Positions 2,184 to 62,548 of a DNA stretch of 64,000 nucleotides are shown here, piece by piece. The stretch comes from an uncultured Rikenellaceae bacterium. GTDB taxonomy: Bacteria; Bacteroidota; Bacteroidia; Bacteroidales; Rikenellaceae. Within the stretch, counting starts at the first letter, position 1, and each line of letters begins with the position of its first letter. A program made the translations under genes and the position numbers. The notes below the pieces were generated by a model. That model saw only the letters and a list, made by a program, of their open reading frames with translations. It did no database searches and was not told where the DNA came from. The stretch spans positions 62,001-126,000 of the forward strand of contig CALUND010000016.1 in assembly GCA_944321925.1 (NCBI GenBank). The letters are read 5' to 3'.

Positions 2184-5084
2184 CTACATCGGACCGTGCA
2201 TCGGACGACCTCCTCCGAAACCGCCGCCCGGACGGCCTCCACCGGGTCGCATGTGTGGTGGTCCGTCGAGAGTCTCGTACATACCTTCGTCTTTCGATCC
2301 TTTCTTGCCAAAGTTACGCAGATTGTAGAAGAGATTGATTCCGAAATAGCGTCCCATTACGTCGGAAATGGTTGTTGTGATCGCTTTGGATCCCCACGTG
2401 CGGGAGTAACTTTGGTTTTGATTGAAAATATCGTTCGCAGTGATGTTGATCTCTCCTCGTTGATTGCGGAAGATTTTCTTGCCGATGCTGGCGTTGCAGA
2501 GGATGTATTGGTTGTTCAGACTGCTGCCGGAAAGACCCAGATATTGGGTATAGGTGGCATTGGCCGCGATGGTGAATCCCAGGGGAAGAACCACTTTGAA
2601 ATTGGCCGAAGCATTGTGTTGGAAATAGTTGTTCTGCTTGTTTTGCGTGGCCAACTGCGTATTGTGAATCTGATTGTAGGAGGCGTTGTAAGCGATGTAG
2701 AAATCGACATTCTCGCTGATGTTGCTGCCCAGAGAGACTCCTCCGTTGAAATTGAGGTTTCTCGATGTATTGTCGGTAATGATCAGTTCATTGAGGTCGT
2801 TGTAGGTTCCGTTCTGTGTGGGGGTTTGTCGATAGGAAACTCCAGCCCGCAAGTTGAGATTACATTTCATGAAGTTGAGCGGGAATCCGTATTCGATGCG
2901 GGAATTCACAACCCAATTGCCGTCCAGGTTGATCGGTCTGCTGTAGCTGCTGCCTCGTTCCAGATGATAGACGGTGCCATCGGGATTGAGAATCGGATAG
3001 CCCTCTGCATTGCTGATCGTGAAGGTCGAGATGTAGTCCTGTGTTAAGGTTCCTCCGATGTAGAGCATGAGGGTTCGACCTTTTTCTACGTTGGATCGCG
3101 TGTAACGTGCGAAAATCCGATGGTCGTAAGAGGGTCGCAGACCCGAATTACCGGAGGAGATGTTGAGCGGGTCGGTGATGTCGAGTACGTCCTGCAACTG
3201 TTGAATGCCGGGATTCTGAGTCGATGAGCCCCAGAAAAGATGGAGTCGGTTGGTCGGAGTGAATTTAATTCGGGCGACTACCGTGTAGGTCAGGTTGTTG
3301 AAACTGTGGTCGAGGTTGTAACTGGTGGGGTATACTCGCGTATTTGCCAAGGTAGACCGTTGGTAGTTTATACTGGCGGAGATGTTCGTCCCGTTTTTGT
3401 TGAAGAGATAGCCGGGACCGATGTTGTGGCGGATGTAATTGCTATTGGTGATGTTGGAGTAGAGCGGGTTGAAGTTGGAATAGTACGTTCCTGTGATGGT
3501 GTCGAAATCGTAAGCGCGTTGATCTCCGTCCGAATAATTATAGCGGATATTGTACTGGAGACTGAGTTGGGAGCTCGGAGAGATTGGTTCCATGTAGGTG
3601 ATGCCTCCTCTGATGGTGTAGTTGTAGCTTTCGTTGGGCCGGAGTTGCCGGACGATCGAGTCGGGTAGACTGGTACGCTGCAGGTTGGAGTAGGTTTCGT
3701 TTTCCCGATTGTTCGTATTGTAACTTCCGTTTGCATTGAGAATCAAAATACGTCCGGGCTTTCCGAGCCGGATCATGTAGTTGATATTCATGCTGGTGTT
3801 CCACCCGAAGTTGTTTCTTTTGGACCATGTGTCGGTAAGGGCTGTGTCGATTTCGAGCGGATCGAAAGGCAGGCGAAGGGTGTATCCGTCGCGATTGTTG
3901 CGGAAACTCTGATAAGAGGCATTTGCCCGAATATGGAGGCGTTGGGTTTCGTTGATATCCCATTCGATACGGGTGTTCATCGAGTGGTTGCTCCGGATGT
4001 TTTTCGAATTGTTTGCAGATAAGGACTCTCTATAATCTTCGCCGGTCAGTTCGTAGAACTCTTTCTGGGTCTCTCTCCAGTTCGTATGTTCTTGGGCGGA
4101 GAACATGTATCCGACATTGACTTTCAGTTTGTCTTTGAAGTCGCCGTTGTAGTTGAAGCCTCCGCTGCCGATTTTGGAGTGGCCGTCGGAGAAATCGTCG
4201 CCCACATCGAGAATATCCTGTACATTGGCATTGCGTTGACCCATGTTGTTGAGGAGTCCGTTCAGGCTGAGCCGGTGATCCTGCATGAAGATGTTGGCCG
4301 TTCCACCGATGATTCCGTAGTGTTGATCCTTCTGTCCGTTCTGTCCGGGTTCGAAGGCATAGCCTCCGTAGAACTTACCGAACTGTCCGATTCGGGCACC
4401 TTCGCGGGTGGTGATGTTGATCGCTTTGTAGCCTTCGCCATCGTCCATGCCGCTGAATTCGGCGTTATCGCTCAATTTGTTGAAAACCTCGATCGATTTG
4501 ACTGTTTCGGCAGGCAGCGACTTGATTGCCGTGGAGACGTCGTTGCTGAAGAACTCTTTGCCGTCGACGAAAATTTTTTGCACCGTCTCTCCTTGGGCTT
4601 GTACTTGTCCGTTCTCTACCTGAATACCGGGCATCTTTTTGAGCAAGCCCTCCACGTCGGCATCCTGGGTTACTTTGTAGGCATCGGCGTTGTAGATCAA
4701 TGTGTCGCCGTTCTGGGTGGTACGTATCGCCACGGCCTCTTTGACGACCGATTCCAGTTCGATACCCGGTTTCAGCCGGAGCGTGTCGAGCACGAGTTTC
4801 GACCGACCCATTTCGATCGACTGTTTGAGGGGTTGGTAGCCCAGGAATGTGATGATCAGATCATAATTTCCGGGCGATACGCTCGACAGGGAGAGGTTGC
4901 CGGCATAACCGGAAACCGCTGTTTTGATGCGGGTCGTATCTTGTTGGGAACGGAGTTGGATGACGGCTCCGATGATTCCTTCACCGGTACTTTCATCGAT
5001 GACGGTACCTCGGATGGAGTTTTGGGCTTCGACTGCTGTTGCAGAGAGTATTACGGCGATACAGAGTAGGAAAAGTCGTTTCAT
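2184..5084 (-). CDS. Outer-membrane beta-barrel protein (TonB-receptor-like)
   Basis: The 966-residue protein starts with a signal peptide ending near VEAQ (residue 20). A carboxypeptidase-regulatory-like beta-sandwich follows (about 22-110), then a plug-like region with KIFVDGKEFFSND and a long beta-barrel of alternating polar and aromatic strands. This fits the OMP beta-barrel family 3 group of Bacteroidota, related to TonB-dependent receptors. The C-terminus is a Gly/Arg/Pro/Met/His-rich tail (about the last 30 residues) beyond the barrel, which is unusual for a receptor. It lies downstream of, and on the same strand as, the two-component system and Spy-like gene at 5272-7986, but a terminator sits in between. 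The transported ligand is unknown. Confidence 0.85.
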   Translation of the reverse strand: MKRLFLLCIAVILSATAVEAQNSIRGTVIDESTGEGIIGAVIQLRSQQDTTRIKTAVSGYAGNLSLSSVSPGNYDLIITFLGYQPLKQSIEMGRSKLVLDTLRLKPGIELESVVKEAVAIRTTQNGDTLIYNADAYKVTQDADVEGLLKKMPGIQVENGQVQAQGETVQKIFVDGKEFFSNDVSTAIKSLPAETVKSIEVFNKLSDNAEFSGMDDGEGYKAINITTREGARIGQFGKFYGGYAFEPGQNGQKDQHYGIIGGTANIFMQDHRLSLNGLLNNMGQRNANVQDILDVGDDFSDGHSKIGSGGFNYNGDFKDKLKVNVGYMFSAQEHTNWRETQKEFYELTGEDYRESLSANNSKNIRSNHSMNTRIEWDINETQRLHIRANASYQSFRNNRDGYTLRLPFDPLEIDTALTDTWSKRNNFGWNTSMNINYMIRLGKPGRILILNANGSYNTNNRENETYSNLQRTSLPDSIVRQLRPNESYNYTIRGGITYMEPISPSSQLSLQYNIRYNYSDGDQRAYDFDTITGTYYSNFNPLYSNITNSNYIRHNIGPGYLFNKNGTNISASINYQRSTLANTRVYPTSYNLDHSFNNLTYTVVARIKFTPTNRLHLFWGSSTQNPGIQQLQDVLDITDPLNISSGNSGLRPSYDHRIFARYTRSNVEKGRTLMLYIGGTLTQDYISTFTISNAEGYPILNPDGTVYHLERGSSYSRPINLDGNWVVNSRIEYGFPLNFMKCNLNLRAGVSYRQTPTQNGTYNDLNELIITDNTSRNLNFNGGVSLGSNISENVDFYIAYNASYNQIHNTQLATQNKQNNYFQHNASANFKVVLPLGFTIAANATYTQYLGLSGSSLNNQYILCNASIGKKIFRNQRGEINITANDIFNQNQSYSRTWGSKAITTTISDVMGRYFGINLFYNLRNFGKKGSKDEGMYETLDGPPHMRPGGGRPGGGFGGGRPMHGPM

Positions 5085-15039: not shown

Positions 15040-16893
15040 ATGGCAAGTAACACGAAAGAAAAGCTGTTCACGGAATTCCCGCCGATCTCTACGGAGCAGT
15101 GGGAAGAGGTGATTCACGCTGACCTGAAAGGTGCCGATTATGAGCGCAAGCTGGTGTGGCGGACCGACGAAGGTTTCAACGTGCGTCCCTATTACCGCGC
15201 GGAGAACCTGAAGGATATCCCGTTCCTGGCAAGCGAAATCGGACGTTTCCCCTTCACGCGGAGCGTCTGCCGCAGCAACTCGTGGCGAGTGCACCAAACC
15301 ATCGGGGTGAAATGCCCTAAGGAGGCCAATGCTCAGGCCCTCAAGGTGCTCAATGCGGGTATCGACTCGCTCGGCTTCTGCATCTCGGACGAGAAGTTCT
15401 CGGCAAAGGACCTCGATGAGTTGCTCTCCGGTATCTCCATTCCTGCAGTGGAGATCGTTTTCCTTGGTCACGGTGTAGCGAATGTGGCGGAGCTCATGCT
15501 TCAGAAACTGGCTGCCGACGGGGTAAAACCGGAGGAGGCCCGCATCTGTTTCGTGATCGACCCGATCATCAAGAAGCTGTCGCTCCAGGGACAATTCGGT
15601 TGCTCGGAGGATGGCTCCTGCTGCTTCGAGAAGATCGCAGGGCTGATCAAGAAGGCCGCTGCCTACAAGCATGTTCGCATGGTGGGCGTGAGCGGAAACT
15701 ATTTCCACAACAGCGGTTCGACGATCGTACAGGAGTTGGCCTTCTCGCTGGCTGCCGGACATGAGTATCTCGTACGTCTGATGGAGCAGGGTGTCGATAT
15801 CGATGCTGCTGCCCGTTCGATCCGTTTTGTTTTTGCGGTCAGCTCCAACTACTTTATGGAGATTGCCAAATTCCGTGCGGCCCGCATGCTCTGGGCCAAC
15901 ATCGTGAAGGCTTACGCTCCGCAGAAGGAGTGCTCGTGCAAGATGTATATCCATGCCGAGACCTCGAAGTGGAACCAGACGGTCTACGATCCCTATGTCA
16001 ACATGCTGCGCGGCACGACCGAGTCGATGAGCGCTACGATCGCCGGGGTGCATTCGTTGGAGGTCGTTCCGTTCGACGCCGCTTTCGAAAAACCGACCGA
16101 TTTCAGTTCGCGTATCGCCCGCAACGTGCAGTTGCTGCTTAAACATGAGTCTCATTTCGATCAGGTGGTCGATCCTGCGGGCGGTTCCTATTACGTGGAG
16201 AATCTCACGAAGAGTATCGCAGAGCAGGCCTGGAAACTTTTCAAGGAGGTCGAAGAGCGGGGCGGTTACATCGCCGCATTCAAGGAGGGATTTATCGTGG
16301 GCGCCGTGGAGGCTTCTGCAGCTGCCAAGGACAAGGCTGTCGCAACCCGTCGCCAGTCGTTGCTCGGAGCCAACCAGTTCCCCAACTTCGCGGAGGTGGC
16401 CGGCGACGAGATCACGACCGAGGCCGTAACCCGTCAGCAAAATGGCGACAATACCCTCAAACCTTACCGCGGTGCAATGGCTTTCGAGGAGATGCGTTTG
16501 CGGACCGATCGCAGCGGCAAGGCCCCCAAAGCCTTCATGCTCACCTGCGGAAACCTGGCCATGGCTCGTGCCCGTGCCCAGTTCTCGTGCAACTTCTTCG
16601 CCTGTGCCGGTATTCGTGTGCAGGACAATACCTTCTTCCACAGCGTGGAGGAGGGCGTGAAAGCCGCTCTCGAGACCAAGGCCGATATCGTCGTTGTCTG
16701 CGCTTCGGACGACGACTACATTACGGTCGCACCGGAGGCTCAAAAATTGTTGGGCGATCGTGCGATTCTCGTTGTGGCCGGAGCCCCGGCCAGCCAGCCT
16801 GAACTGGAGGCTCAGGGCATTACTCGCTTTATTTCCGTGCGGAGCAACGTGCTCGAAACGCTTCGCGGCTATTTGAAAGAACTCGGTATCTAA
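15040..16893 (+). CDS. mutA: Methylmalonyl-CoA mutase small subunit
   Basis: 617 residues. The N-terminal two thirds are the mutase TIM barrel ([33 protein letters not shown]). The C-terminal domain is B12-binding-like but lacks the DxHxxG cobalt-ligand motif, as is normal for the non-catalytic small subunit. With MutB it forms the heterodimer that interconverts succinyl-CoA and methylmalonyl-CoA in the cytoplasm, the route to propionate. The large subunit gene starts 13 bp downstream. Confidence 0.95.
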
Positions 16894-16906: not shown

Positions 16907-19051
16907 ATGAGAGCAAAATTTTCAGAATTGACATATGAAGGCGGCGCACAAAAAAGTTGTTGCGGCGCCGGAAAGTCGGCCTGCGGCGAAGAGAGCGTCT
17001 GGCTGACAGCCGAACAGATTCCCGTAAAAGGATCCTACTCGGCTGCCGATCTTGAGGGTATGGAACACCTCAACTATGCGGCGGGTCTCGCTCCGTTTTT
17101 GCGTGGCCCTTACTCGACAATGTATGTGATGCGTCCGTGGACCATCCGTCAGTATGCAGGCTTCTCGACGGCCGAAGAGTCCAACGCTTTTTACCGTCGT
17201 AACCTGGCTTCCGGACAGAAGGGCCTCAGCGTAGCATTCGACCTGGCCACGCACCGCGGCTACGATGCCGATCATCCGCGTGTCGTGGGCGATGTGGGCA
17301 AGGCCGGCGTTTCGATCTGCTCGGTGGAGGATATGAAGGTGCTTTTCGACGGCATTCCCCTCGACAAGATGTCCGTGTCGATGACCATGAACGGCGCCGT
17401 GCTGCCGGTTCTGGCATTCTACATCGTGGCCGGTCTGGAGCAGGGTTGCACCCTCGAGCAGTTGAGCGGTACGATCCACAACGATATCCTCAAGGAGTTC
17501 ATGGTGCGTAACACTTATATCTATCCGCCCAAGTTCTCGATGAAGATCATCGCCGACATCTTCGAATACACGTCGAAGAACATGCCCAAGTTCAACTCGA
17601 TCTCCATCTCCGGTTACCACATGCAGGAGGCGGGCGCTACGGCGGACATCGAGTTGGCCTATACGTTGGCCGACGGTCTGGAGTATCTGCGAGCCGGTAT
17701 CAACGCCGGAATGAGCATCGATACGTTCGCACCGCGTCTGTCGTTCTTCTGGGCCATCGGCATGAACCACTTCATGGAGATCGCCAAGATGCGTGCGGCA
17801 CGTATGCTCTGGGCGAAGATCGTGAAACAGTTCAACCCGAAGAATCCGAAGTCGATGGCACTGCGTACCCACAGCCAGACGTCGGGATGGTCGCTTACGG
17901 AGCAGGATCCATTCAACAACGTGGCCCGTACGGCCATCGAGGCGATGGGTGCCGCTCTCGGACATACCCAGTCGCTCCATACCAACGCCCTCGACGAGGC
18001 GATCGCCTTGCCGACCGACTTCTCTGCACGTATCGCACGTAATACACAGATTTACATTCAGGAAGAGACCAATATCTGTCGCGAGGTCGATCCGTGGGCC
18101 GGTTCCTACTATGTGGAGTCGCTTACCAACGAGATCGTTCACAAGGCTTGGGAACACATTCAGGAGATCGAGAAGCTGGGCGGTATGGCCAAGGCGATCG
18201 AGACCGGTATCCCCAAGATGCGTATCGAGGAGGCTTCGGCTCGCAAACAGGCCCGTATCGACTCCGGAACCGAGAAGATCATCGGTCTGAACGAGTATCG
18301 TCTTGAGAAGGAGGATCCGATCGACATTCTGGCGGTCGACAATACGGCTGTCCGCGAGCAGCAGATCCGTCGACTCAAGGAGTTGCGTGCCAACCGCGAC
18401 GGCGAGGCGGTGAAGAAAGCCCTCGCAGCCATTACCGAATGTGTCCGCACGGGCAAGGGCAACCTGCTCGAGCTGGCCGTCGAGGCGGCTAAGGTACGTG
18501 CTTCGCTCGGTGAGATTTCCGATGCTTGCGAAGTCGTCGTAGGTCGTTATCAAGCAGTCATCCGTTCAATTTCAGGTGTATATTCTTCAGAAGTGAAAGA
18601 CGACAAATCCTTCGCACGCGCCAAAGAGTTGTGCGAGCAGTTCGCTAAGAAAGAGGGCCGTCAGCCGCGTATCATGATCGCCAAGTTGGGCCAGGACGGA
18701 CACGACCGTGGCGCCAAGGTGGTTGCTACCGGTTATGCCGATATCGGATTCGATGTCGACATGGGTCCGCTTTTCCAGACTCCGGCCGAGGCAGCCAAAC
18801 AGGCTGTGGAAAACGATGTGCATGTAGTGGGCGTCTCGTCGCTTGCCGCAGGTCACCTTACGCTCGTACCGCAGATCATTGCCGAGTTGAAGAAGCTCGG
18901 TCGCGAGGATATCGTGGTGATCGTGGGCGGTGTGATTCCTGCGCAGGATTACGACGAACTCTACCGCGACGGTGCCGCAGCCATTTTCGGCCCCGGTACG
19001 CCGATCGCTACGGCGGCTATCAAGATTCTCGAGATTCTGCTCGGGGAGTAG
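16907..19051 (+). CDS. mutB: Methylmalonyl-CoA mutase large (catalytic) subunit
   Basis: 714 residues. The barrel holds the family stretches [16 protein letters not shown] and [13 protein letters not shown]; the C-terminal domain carries the B12 motif DGHDRG with the cobalt-ligand His, followed by GVSSLAAGH and the IVGGVIP/GPGTP loops. It uses adenosylcobalamin for the radical rearrangement of methylmalonyl-CoA to succinyl-CoA. A good Shine-Dalgarno (AGGAGAG) precedes the ATG. The extreme N-terminus has an unusual Cys cluster (Cys18, 19, 26). A terminator follows, so mutAB is a two-gene operon. Confidence 0.97.
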
Positions 19052-59488: not shown

Positions 59489-59646
59489 CGATTTCGAGGG
59501 GTCCCTCGTTTCGTTCTGCGAAGTCGGCCCGTTTGGGAGTGCTTTTCTATCTGTATGAATGATACGCTATTACGAGGATTGTTGATAAAAAGACGATAAC
59601 TTTCGTCGAAGGCGACGGACAGGGCATTTTTTTCTCTCTACTTTTA

Positions 59647-59839
59647 TGACTGTTCTCGGTGAGGACAGGCTCGCAAAACGGGTCTGCTGTCCGACGCAAG
59701 AGGGAAAATCGTGTGAATCGATTACAGTACCCGCTGCTGTGTTTTCCGAGGGCTCCGGAGCATGAGGTCACTGCTTTTGTCGCGGGAAGGCGCTCCGGAG
59801 TAGGGAATCAGTCAGAAGACCTGCCGGGAACGATTGTCA
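59647..59839 (+). ncRNA. Cobalamin riboswitch upstream of nrdDG
   Basis: The conserved core of the AdoCbl riboswitch is present in order: AGGGAA (59701-59706), GTGTGAATCG with the following ACAGTACCCGC (59724-59734) and CTGTG, then GGTCACTG (59766-59773), GGGAAGGC (59784-59791) and the B12 box GTCAGAAGACCTGCC (59811-59825). The flanks can pair to form P1 (TGAC at 59647-59650 with GTCA at 59836-59839). It ends about 107 bases before the nrdD start. Expected effect: B12 binding lowers expression of the downstream B12-independent ribonucleotide reductase. No clear terminator follows, so control is probably at translation. Confidence 0.9.
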
Positions 59840-59945
59840 GAGGAGAGCCGCCTTCGGGAGTTAGGGCAGAGCGATCGAGAGCATGCTCCGTGTTCGCCGT
59901 TCCCTTGCTTTGCCGCTCTTCTGTGCGATTTGTCGGGAAGAACAG

Positions 59946-62069
59946 ATGAAAAAACATACGGCTATGGAACACACGGAATTCAGTATCGTCAAAAGAGACG
60001 GGACGAAAGAGCTCTTTTCAATGAATAAGATTACGGCGGCCATCGAAAAGGCTTTCCATTCGGTGGGCAAAACACCCACTCCGGAGGCCCTCGATCAACT
60101 CACTTCGAGCCTCTATATCCACGAGGGAACGACTGTCGAGGAGATTCAGAATCAGGTGGAGCTGTCGCTCATGAGTCACGGTTACTACGGCGTGGCGAAA
60201 TCGTTCATCATCTATCGTCGGCAACATACCGAGGATCGCGAGGTGCGCGACAAACTCGCCTTCCTGGTCGACTATTGCGACGCGGCCAATCCGGCTACCG
60301 GCAGTAAGTACGATGCCAATGCCAACGTGGAGCACAAGAACATCGCTACGTTGATCGGCGAACTGCCCAAACAGAACTTCATCCGGCTCAACCGTCGGTT
60401 GCTTTGCGATCGCATCAAGGAGATGTACGGCAAGCCGATGGCCGACAGTTACCTGGAGCTGCTCAACAACCATTTCATCTACAAGAACGACGAGACGAGC
60501 ATGGCCAACTATTGCGCCAGCATCACCATGTATCCCTGGCTGATCGGGGGGACGCTCTCCATCGGAGGAAACTCGACCAAACCGACCAACCTCAAATCGT
60601 TCTGTGGAGGCTTTGTCAATATGGTCTTCATTGTGAGCAGCATGCTCAGCGGAGCGTGCGCCACGCCGGAATTCCTCATGTACCTGAACTATTTCATCGG
60701 TCAGGAGTACGGGAACGACTATTTCCGCAATCCGGATCGGGTCGTTGATCTTTCGCTCCGGCAACGTACGCTCGACAAGGTGATCACCGACTGTTTCGAA
60801 CAGATCGTCTATTCGATCAATCAGCCCACCGGAGCCCGGAATTTCCAGGCCGTGTTCTGGAACATTGCCTACTACGACCGCTATTACTTCGAGAGCCTGT
60901 TCGGCAATTTCGTCTTTCCGGACGGCAGTCGTCCCGATTGGGATTCGCTCGACTGGTTGCAGCGTCGTTTCATGCGGTGGTTCAACGAGGAGCGTACCCG
61001 TTCCGTGTTGACCTTCCCCGTGGAGACGATGGCTCTGCTGACCGAGAACGGCGATGTCAAAGATAAGGCTTACGGCGATTTTACGGCTGAAATGTATGCG
61101 GCAGGCCACTCGTTCTTCACCTACATGAGCGACAATGCCGATTCGCTCAGCAGTTGCTGCCGTTTGCGCAACGAGATTCAGGATAACGGATTCAGCTATA
61201 CGTTGGGTGCGGGCGGTGTCTCCACGGGATCGAAAAGCGTGCTTACGATCAACCTCAACCGTTGCGTACAGCATGCCGTGCGGAACGGAATCCCCTACAC
61301 GGAATTTCTCGAGGAGGTGGTCGACAAGGTCCACAAGTTCCAGTTGGCCTACAACGAAAATCTCAAACATCTGCAGTCGAAGGGGATGCTTCCCCTGTTC
61401 GATGCCGGCTACATCCGTATGGATCGGCAATACCTGACCATCGGGGTCAATGGCCTGGTGGAGGCTGCCGAGTTCCTGGGGCTGAAGATCGACGACAATC
61501 CGAAGTATCAGGCTTTTGTCGAGGATATCCTGGGACTGGTGGAGCGCTATAACAAAAAATATCGTACCAAGGAGGTGCTCTTCAATTGCGAGATGATTCC
61601 GGCAGAAAACGTGGGTGTCAAGCACGCCAAATGGGATCGTGAAGCCGGGTTCCAGGTCCCGCGCGACTGTTACAACAGCTACTTCTACGTGGTGGAGGAT
61701 CCATCGCTCACGGTTCTCGACAAGTTCCGTCTGCACGGACGTCGTTATGTGGAGCATCTGACGGGAGGTTCCGCGCTTCACATGAACCTCGACGAGCATC
61801 TTTCCAAGGCGCAGTATCGGCAATTGCTCCGCGTAGCCGCGGTGGAGGGAACCAACTACTTCACCTTCAATATCCCCAACACGCTTTGCAACGAATGCGG
61901 ACATATCGATAAACGTTACTTGAAGGAGTGTCCGGTTTGCCACAGCAAGAATACCGACTATCTGACTCGTGTGATCGGTTACCTCAAACGGGTGAGCAAC
62001 TTCTCCCAGGCGCGGCAGAAGGAGGCTTCCAGACGCTATTACAACCATGCTGCAGGGGAGAAAATGTGA
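59946..62069 (+). CDS. nrdD: Anaerobic (class III) ribonucleoside-triphosphate reductase
   Basis: 707 residues. An N-terminal ATP-cone (SIVKRDGTKELFSMNKITAAIE region) is the allosteric dATP/ATP site. The C-terminal part carries two zinc-type Cys pairs (CNECGH, CPVCHSKN) and the glycyl-radical stretch RVIGYLKRVSNFS (radical Gly). It reduces ribonucleotides to deoxyribonucleotides in the absence of oxygen and does not need B12. A cobalamin riboswitch precedes it. The longer frame to 59883 lies at the riboswitch edge; ATG at 59946 (or 59964) is preferred. Confidence 0.95.
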   Translation: MKKHTAMEHTEFSIVKRDGTKELFSMNKITAAIEKAFHSVGKTPTPEALDQLTSSLYIHEGTTVEEIQNQVELSLMSHGYYGVAKSFIIYRRQHTEDREVRDKLAFLVDYCDAANPATGSKYDANANVEHKNIATLIGELPKQNFIRLNRRLLCDRIKEMYGKPMADSYLELLNNHFIYKNDETSMANYCASITMYPWLIGGTLSIGGNSTKPTNLKSFCGGFVNMVFIVSSMLSGACATPEFLMYLNYFIGQEYGNDYFRNPDRVVDLSLRQRTLDKVITDCFEQIVYSINQPTGARNFQAVFWNIAYYDRYYFESLFGNFVFPDGSRPDWDSLDWLQRRFMRWFNEERTRSVLTFPVETMALLTENGDVKDKAYGDFTAEMYAAGHSFFTYMSDNADSLSSCCRLRNEIQDNGFSYTLGAGGVSTGSKSVLTINLNRCVQHAVRNGIPYTEFLEEVVDKVHKFQLAYNENLKHLQSKGMLPLFDAGYIRMDRQYLTIGVNGLVEAAEFLGLKIDDNPKYQAFVEDILGLVERYNKKYRTKEVLFNCEMIPAENVGVKHAKWDREAGFQVPRDCYNSYFYVVEDPSLTVLDKFRLHGRRYVEHLTGGSALHMNLDEHLSKAQYRQLLRVAAVEGTNYFTFNIPNTLCNECGHIDKRYLKECPVCHSKNTDYLTRVIGYLKRVSNFSQARQKEASRRYYNHAAGEKM

Positions 62070-62548
62070 TGTTGCGTTATGCCGATTACGATATTGTCTT
62101 CCGTGAAATACCGGACGAGGTAACCCTTGCCGTGAACTTGACGGGATGTCCCAACCGGTGTCCGGGATGTCACAGCCCCTATCTGCAACGCGACGAAGGC
62201 CAGGTCTTGACGGAGGAGGTTCTTTGCGGTTGGTTGCGGCGTTATGAAGGGGCGGTCACCTGTCTCTGTTTCATGGGGGGCGACGGCGATCCGGCTCGGG
62301 TTGCGGAGTTGGCGCGAAGCGTTCGCGAGCAGGGTTTGGTGAAAACGGCCTGGTATTCCGGGAGGACGGAGTTGCCCGCGGATTGCGATCGGGAGGCGTT
62401 CGATTTCATCAAACTCGGGCCCTATGTCGAACGATTGGGCGCGCTCGATCGGCCGACGACGAATCAACGGCTTTATCGGATCGAACGGGGGGCGGATGGA
62501 CGCGCAGCACGGTTGGTCGACATTACGTCGTGTTTTTGGCGGCAGTAG
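62069..62548 (+). CDS. nrdG: Anaerobic RNR-activating radical SAM enzyme
   Basis: 159 residues. The radical SAM cluster motif is LTGCPNRCPGCHSP (CxxxCxxC). NrdG uses a 4Fe-4S cluster and SAM to create the glycyl radical on NrdD. Its ATG overlaps the NrdD stop by one base (TGATG), so expression is coupled and under the same riboswitch. The longer frame to 61928 lies within nrdD and is rejected. Confidence 0.95.
   Translation: MLRYADYDIVFREIPDEVTLAVNLTGCPNRCPGCHSPYLQRDEGQVLTEEVLCGWLRRYEGAVTCLCFMGGDGDPARVAELARSVREQGLVKTAWYSGRTELPADCDREAFDFIKLGPYVERLGALDRPTTNQRLYRIERGADGRAARLVDITSCFWRQ

Follow-up and report, generated by a model that had tools for sequence, protein, structure and literature searches.

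Why should an anaerobic ribonucleotide reductase that does not use B12 be preceded by a cobalamin riboswitch? The question is raised by the nrdDG locus in a stretch of Rikenellaceae DNA of 64,000 nucleotides (the window). A preliminary description of the locus had proposed that the cell also possesses a class II, B12-dependent reductase (NrdJ) and turns off NrdDG when B12 is plentiful. The analysis presented here leads us to a similar reading, namely that a cobamide riboswitch with an L5-L13 kissing loop probably controls nrdDG and represses it when NrdJ can serve.

A cobalamin riboswitch precedes an intact nrdDG operon

When the window was searched with cmscan, a single Rfam match exceeded threshold. 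This match, to the cobalamin family RF00174 (86.1 bits, E 8e-20, gathering score 31.5), covers model positions 1-189 and thus the full-length aptamer (Table 1). The AdoCbl-riboswitch core motifs quoted in the preliminary description were all found in the sequence, and the interval that it gave, 59647-59839, takes in nearly the entire aptamer but not the kissing-loop hairpin that follows it. The element before nrdDG is a genuine cobalamin riboswitch, predicted to sense cobamides and to belong to the L5-L13 kissing-loop class. The motif TAnnTTTG, the -7 promoter element of Bacteroidetes, is found at the 5' edge of the aptamer in many of the aligned nrdD leaders.

Table 1. Features of the nrdDG locus and of MutAB, in window coordinates
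Feature	Position	Strand	Remarks
MutAB small subunit	15040-16890		
MutAB large subunit	16907-19048		
TTGTTGATAA, DnaA-box-like (reverse TTATCAACAA)	59579..59588	+	read from sequence, 5' of riboswitch
TACTTTTA, resembles -7 promoter element TAnnTTTG	59639..59646	+	aptamer 5' edge, from alignment position
Cobalamin riboswitch aptamer, RF00174	59640..59842	+	86.1 bits, full model
L5 CCCG, proposed kissing-loop partner	59730..59733	+	invariant in 30-leader alignment
P13 hairpin GCCTT-CGGGAGTT-AGGGC	59850..59867	+	shortly 3' of aptamer; conserved stem
CGGG in P13 loop	59855-59858		complementary to aptamer L5 CCCG
Linker, P13 to nrdD start, ~96 nt	59868..59963	+	terminator and structure searches
Alternative nrdD start, in-frame ATG	59946		
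nrdD (701 aa), class III ribonucleotide reductase, anaerobic and B12-independent	59964..62069	+	TIGR02827
nrdG, radical-SAM activase of NrdD	62069..62548	+	TIGR02826

The riboswitch lies in the leader of a class III reductase operon, as had been described. NrdD scores 957 bits against its model (cut-off 568) and has kept both its zinc-finger cysteines and, near the C terminus, the glycyl-radical motif RVIGY, while NrdG scores 160 bits (cut-off 151.7) and has kept the radical-SAM cysteines CX3CX2C in the form CPNRCPGC. Thus, the glycyl-radical site and the zinc and radical-SAM cysteines that mark class III NrdD and NrdG proteins are all present and, as judged from its sequence, the nrdDG operon is intact. 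The window also encodes the B12-dependent enzyme MutAB, as previously noted; the large subunit scores 1302 bits (cut-off 876), and the small subunit, at 566 bits, falls just below its own curated cut-off of 617.

The preliminary description had called for a search for B12 transport genes in the genome, and cobamide-uptake genes under riboswitch control were indeed found. Three further riboswitches occur in the genome; two precede DUF5074 (BtuG-like) proteins, one of which is followed by a TonB receptor, and for this reason the organism is very likely a cobamide scavenger. The remaining one (contig C11, 160758-160982, minus strand; locus L350, 7759-7983) is a strong cobalamin riboswitch of 95 bits with no convincing downstream gene; it lies ~420 bp before a convergent sdaA, and the only open reading frame there encodes 157 aa with no Pfam match.

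The leader carries a P13 hairpin and a predicted L5-L13 kissing loop

A kissing loop between L5 and L13 is known for cobalamin riboswitches (PMC9600662), and the hairpin that closely follows the aptamer, together with its potential to pair with L5, fits that architecture. Among 42 family nrdD leaders, 39 have a P13-type hairpin whose stem reaches 4 pairs or more, versus 25% of shuffled controls, the controls being held to one fixed loop position and the observed leaders being allowed the best of several. These 42 leaders contain 30 different P13 stem sequences, and in an alignment of 30 nrdD leaders the L13 CGGG is, like its L5 partner, invariant. The two riboswitches that this genome has before BtuG-like genes (btu-type) carry UACCGC in L5 and GCGGUA (GCGGUG in one) in the hairpin loop. 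Since the sequence differs and the pairing is retained, L5 and L13 appear to covary, and the CCCG/CGGG pair with its compensatory variant identifies the leader as one with a P13-borne kissing loop.

How the kissing loop might act on nrdD is less apparent from the leader. The nrdD start lies 83-310 nt past the aptamer end in relatives. We found no intrinsic terminator on the plus strand between the aptamer and nrdD, which rules out such a terminator in the linker as the read-out. Occlusion of the ribosome site by P13 was not seen, and the linker is no better structured than its shuffles (z-score +0.67). One might therefore suppose that the aptamer no longer controls nrdDG, or that it acts as an ON switch, and the unstructured linker with no visible terminator or occluded ribosome-binding site would agree with this. 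We consider it very improbable, as the core, L5 and L13 are intact and conserved across genera, and the cobamide riboswitches of Bacteroides thetaiotaomicron repress their downstream genes (PMC8941943).

NrdJ in the genome of the window

The genome to which the window belongs (G000) is an assembly of 1.9 Mb in 18 contigs that is 84.9% complete. The search for nrdJ that the preliminary description had proposed found no class II NrdJ in this assembly with two models and, likewise, there was no match to a class I small subunit or to the class I/II catalytic domain. A genome without a class II reductase is among the outcomes that the description had itself listed as counting against its reading. 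That domain is present in 137 of the 150 genomes of our family sample, nearly always in a protein that is NrdJ-like in size and score. Taken at face value, these results would mean that NrdJ and class I enzymes are really missing from this organism, and that the riboswitch tunes its sole reductase, either as a leaky brake by which the amount of reductase follows cobamide or as a relic of a recent nrdJ loss. The genus as a whole lends this reading some weight, because NrdJ occurs in only 1 of its 11 genomes (G005) and is missing from 9 of the 10 congeners, for most of which incompleteness alone is an unlikely explanation. In two of them (G006 and G007), folB adjoins the gene that comes after nrdJ in G005, indicating that nrdJ is cleanly gone. 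G007 (folB locus L271) is 90% complete, and our searches gave no ribonucleotide reductase for it, whatever the class.

We nevertheless regard true absence of NrdJ from the window's genome as unlikely, since the assembly is only 85% complete and is missing folB as well. At 11 of 17 family loci folB adjoins nrdJ, with nrdJ usually after folB, and all 10 congeners possess folB. The gene order in G007 is PfkB, folB, the nrdJ slot, an outer-membrane gene and gcvT. Contig C6 of the window's genome has gcvT at 3117-4220, so that the expected place of folB and nrdJ falls at the contig end; the 3 kb left of gcvT, up to that end, hold an unrelated island that includes a nucleoid-associated NA37 protein. 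With folB also missing and a contig ending at the expected site, we favor a gap in the assembly over a real loss, and absence of NrdJ cannot be claimed for this genome. Its own nrdJ most probably lies in the gap, next to folB. The order pgk-PfkB-folB-nrdJ (seen in G012; pgk-folB-nrdJ in G026) was also considered as a locator, but this neighbourhood is broken in the window's genome, where pgk-pepO stands near the end of contig C2, and therefore gives no location for nrdJ.

The riboswitch and NrdJ tend to occur together across Bacteroidales

The logic of two reductases can be examined beyond a single assembly. DNA 5' of nrdD was scored with Rfam throughout the family sample, except in seven genomes (G006, G057, G135, G015, G041, G038 and G080) in which a fragmented or contig-edge nrdD was unscorable. 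A riboswitch was found upstream of nrdD on the same strand at 65 loci in 63 genomes, representing three NrdD types, and NrdJ, recognised as a class I/II large-subunit match of NrdJ size and score, is present in 63/63 of these genomes. Counting the window's genome the figure is 63/64, with that genome as the sole exception in the family sample. Eight genomes have an nrdD without a riboswitch and no NrdJ, namely seven congeners (G001-G004 and G008-G010) and G125. For the congeners, this is what would be expected if selection or loss takes the switch away once NrdJ goes, and it argues against a sole reductase under a riboswitch in the window's genome. Decayed riboswitches before the congeners' nrdD genes were ruled out, as none was matched even at E 10. 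The association between riboswitch and NrdJ gives a Fisher P of 8e-8 with genomes treated as independent of kinship. The rule is not strict, given that G005 combines NrdJ with a different, riboswitch-free nrdD and that two g11 genomes (G020 and G039) have NrdJ and an nrdD without a riboswitch.

Among 50 public Bacteroidales genomes, NrdJ was found in 29 of 30 with a riboswitch before nrdD versus 15 of 20 without. The pattern used to detect riboswitches in this set recovered 41 of 42 known cases and none of 210 shuffles, and 9 of 9 of its positives that were rechecked with Rfam were confirmed. The same arrangement is present in Parabacteroides faecis, Bacteroides timonensis, Phocaeicola paurosaccharolyticus, Alistipes, Paludibacter and others, and most Prevotella are without it. 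Thus, the dual-reductase logic of the preliminary description holds up well at the level of the lineage, but the NrdJ that it predicts was not found in the window's own assembly.

Several individual loci deserve mention. A Bacteroidaceae metagenome-assembled genome of 2.2 Mb (RGIG4492, L021) has a riboswitch before nrdD and no NrdJ match, which makes it the second such genome. In B. timonensis (L006), two divergent cobalamin riboswitches stand back to back (3358-3562 on the minus strand and 3654-3872 on the plus strand), one of them before nrdD. Two family genomes, G127 (L157, L307) and G133 (L158, L305), each encode two NrdD types, each with its own cobalamin riboswitch, in addition to NrdJ.

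The nrdDG copy differs in ancestry from those of congeners

In an rpoB tree the window's genome falls within its genus and pairs with NrdJ-less congeners as their sister (98/95); the other branch holds the NrdJ-bearing G005 and G007. Its NrdD groups instead with those of four genomes from three other genera (G063, G029, G027 and G044) at 86-89% identity and with support of 100/99, whereas the NrdD proteins of seven congeners form a separate clade (100/100). All four of these copies are riboswitch-bearing, and their leaders are also the most like that of the window (63-66%, versus at most 57% for others). The nrdDG of the window is therefore of different ancestry from the congeners' copies. As the simplest reading, these trees and leaders suggest that riboswitch and nrdDG entered the lineage as one cassette by horizontal transfer; an old duplication with losses is the alternative. 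The promoters of the congeners' nrdD genes (L176-L179 and L181-L183) have a longer DnaA-box-like form, TTGTTGATAACTT, upstream of nrdD, and the window retains TTGTTGATAA upstream of its riboswitch despite the different origin of its nrdD.

The apparent acquisition of the cassette is a further point in favor of a sole reductase, because a B12-repressed enzyme could have entered a lineage that had no NrdJ. On that account, a horizontally acquired, B12-sensing nrdDG would be the only reductase of a NrdJ-less anaerobe, with the riboswitch setting its whole deoxyribonucleotide supply. We think this quite unlikely; a strong OFF switch on the only reductase should be harmful, and the aptamer shows no decay.

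A model for the control of nrdDG by cobamides

In the reading that we prefer, with control of nrdDG by the kissing-loop riboswitch and NrdJ as the second reductase, the leader would permit production of the B12-independent NrdDG when cobamide is scarce. When cobamide is plentiful, the ligand would stabilise the L5-L13 kissing loop and nrdDG expression would fall, because the class II, B12-dependent NrdJ would then take over the supply of deoxyribonucleotides. The kissing loop would have to exert its effect on nrdD across the ~96 nt linker, which contains no intrinsic terminator. The OFF direction is proposed by analogy with the B. thetaiotaomicron riboswitches, which act on other genes (PMC8941943).

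If the model holds, which reductase these bacteria use in the gut would depend on their supply of vitamin B12. Over about a hundred Bacteroidales genomes, the presence or absence of the B12 riboswitch on the anaerobic reductase tends to track that of the B12-dependent enzyme, and riboswitch and nrdDG operon appear to move between genera as a unit. If the window's genome and RGIG4492 are truly without NrdJ, they would offer a test of a B12 OFF switch on an essential, unbacked enzyme.

Comparison with known systems

The arrangement of a B12 riboswitch before nrdDG has itself been published; what is new here is its family-wide co-loss with NrdJ and the apparent transfer of the cassette. Our literature search, which covered sources other than subscription journals and RegPrecise, found no paper on a riboswitch before nrdD in Bacteroidales. 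In 2004, Desulfovibrio vulgaris and Desulfuromonas were reported to have a B12-element ahead of nrdDG (PMC545781). As at the present locus, a cobalamin riboswitch there precedes a class III nrdDG and the same logic was proposed, but those organisms are Deltaproteobacteria with NrdJ, whereas here the host belongs to Bacteroidales and NrdJ was not seen in the assembly. In Propionibacterium acnes, cobalamin riboswitches were described in 2013 before both nrdAB and nrdDG, with nrdJ lacking one, and RNA-seq of nrdAB was consistent with premature termination (PMC3848588). The riboswitch in its nrdDG leader resembles the one described here, although P. acnes is an actinobacterium that expresses B12 biosynthesis genes and the present organism is, by its BtuG-like and TonB genes, a probable scavenger. 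For the nrdABS operon of Streptomyces, repression of a B12-independent reductase by coenzyme B12 through a riboswitch is experimentally shown according to Borovok et al. (2006), as cited in PMC5962746; that reductase is of class Ia, whereas the one considered here is of class III and its repression is predicted. The cobamide riboswitches of B. thetaiotaomicron, from the same phylum, also repress with B12, but they control transport operons (PMC8941943) and not, as we propose for the window, a ribonucleotide reductase.
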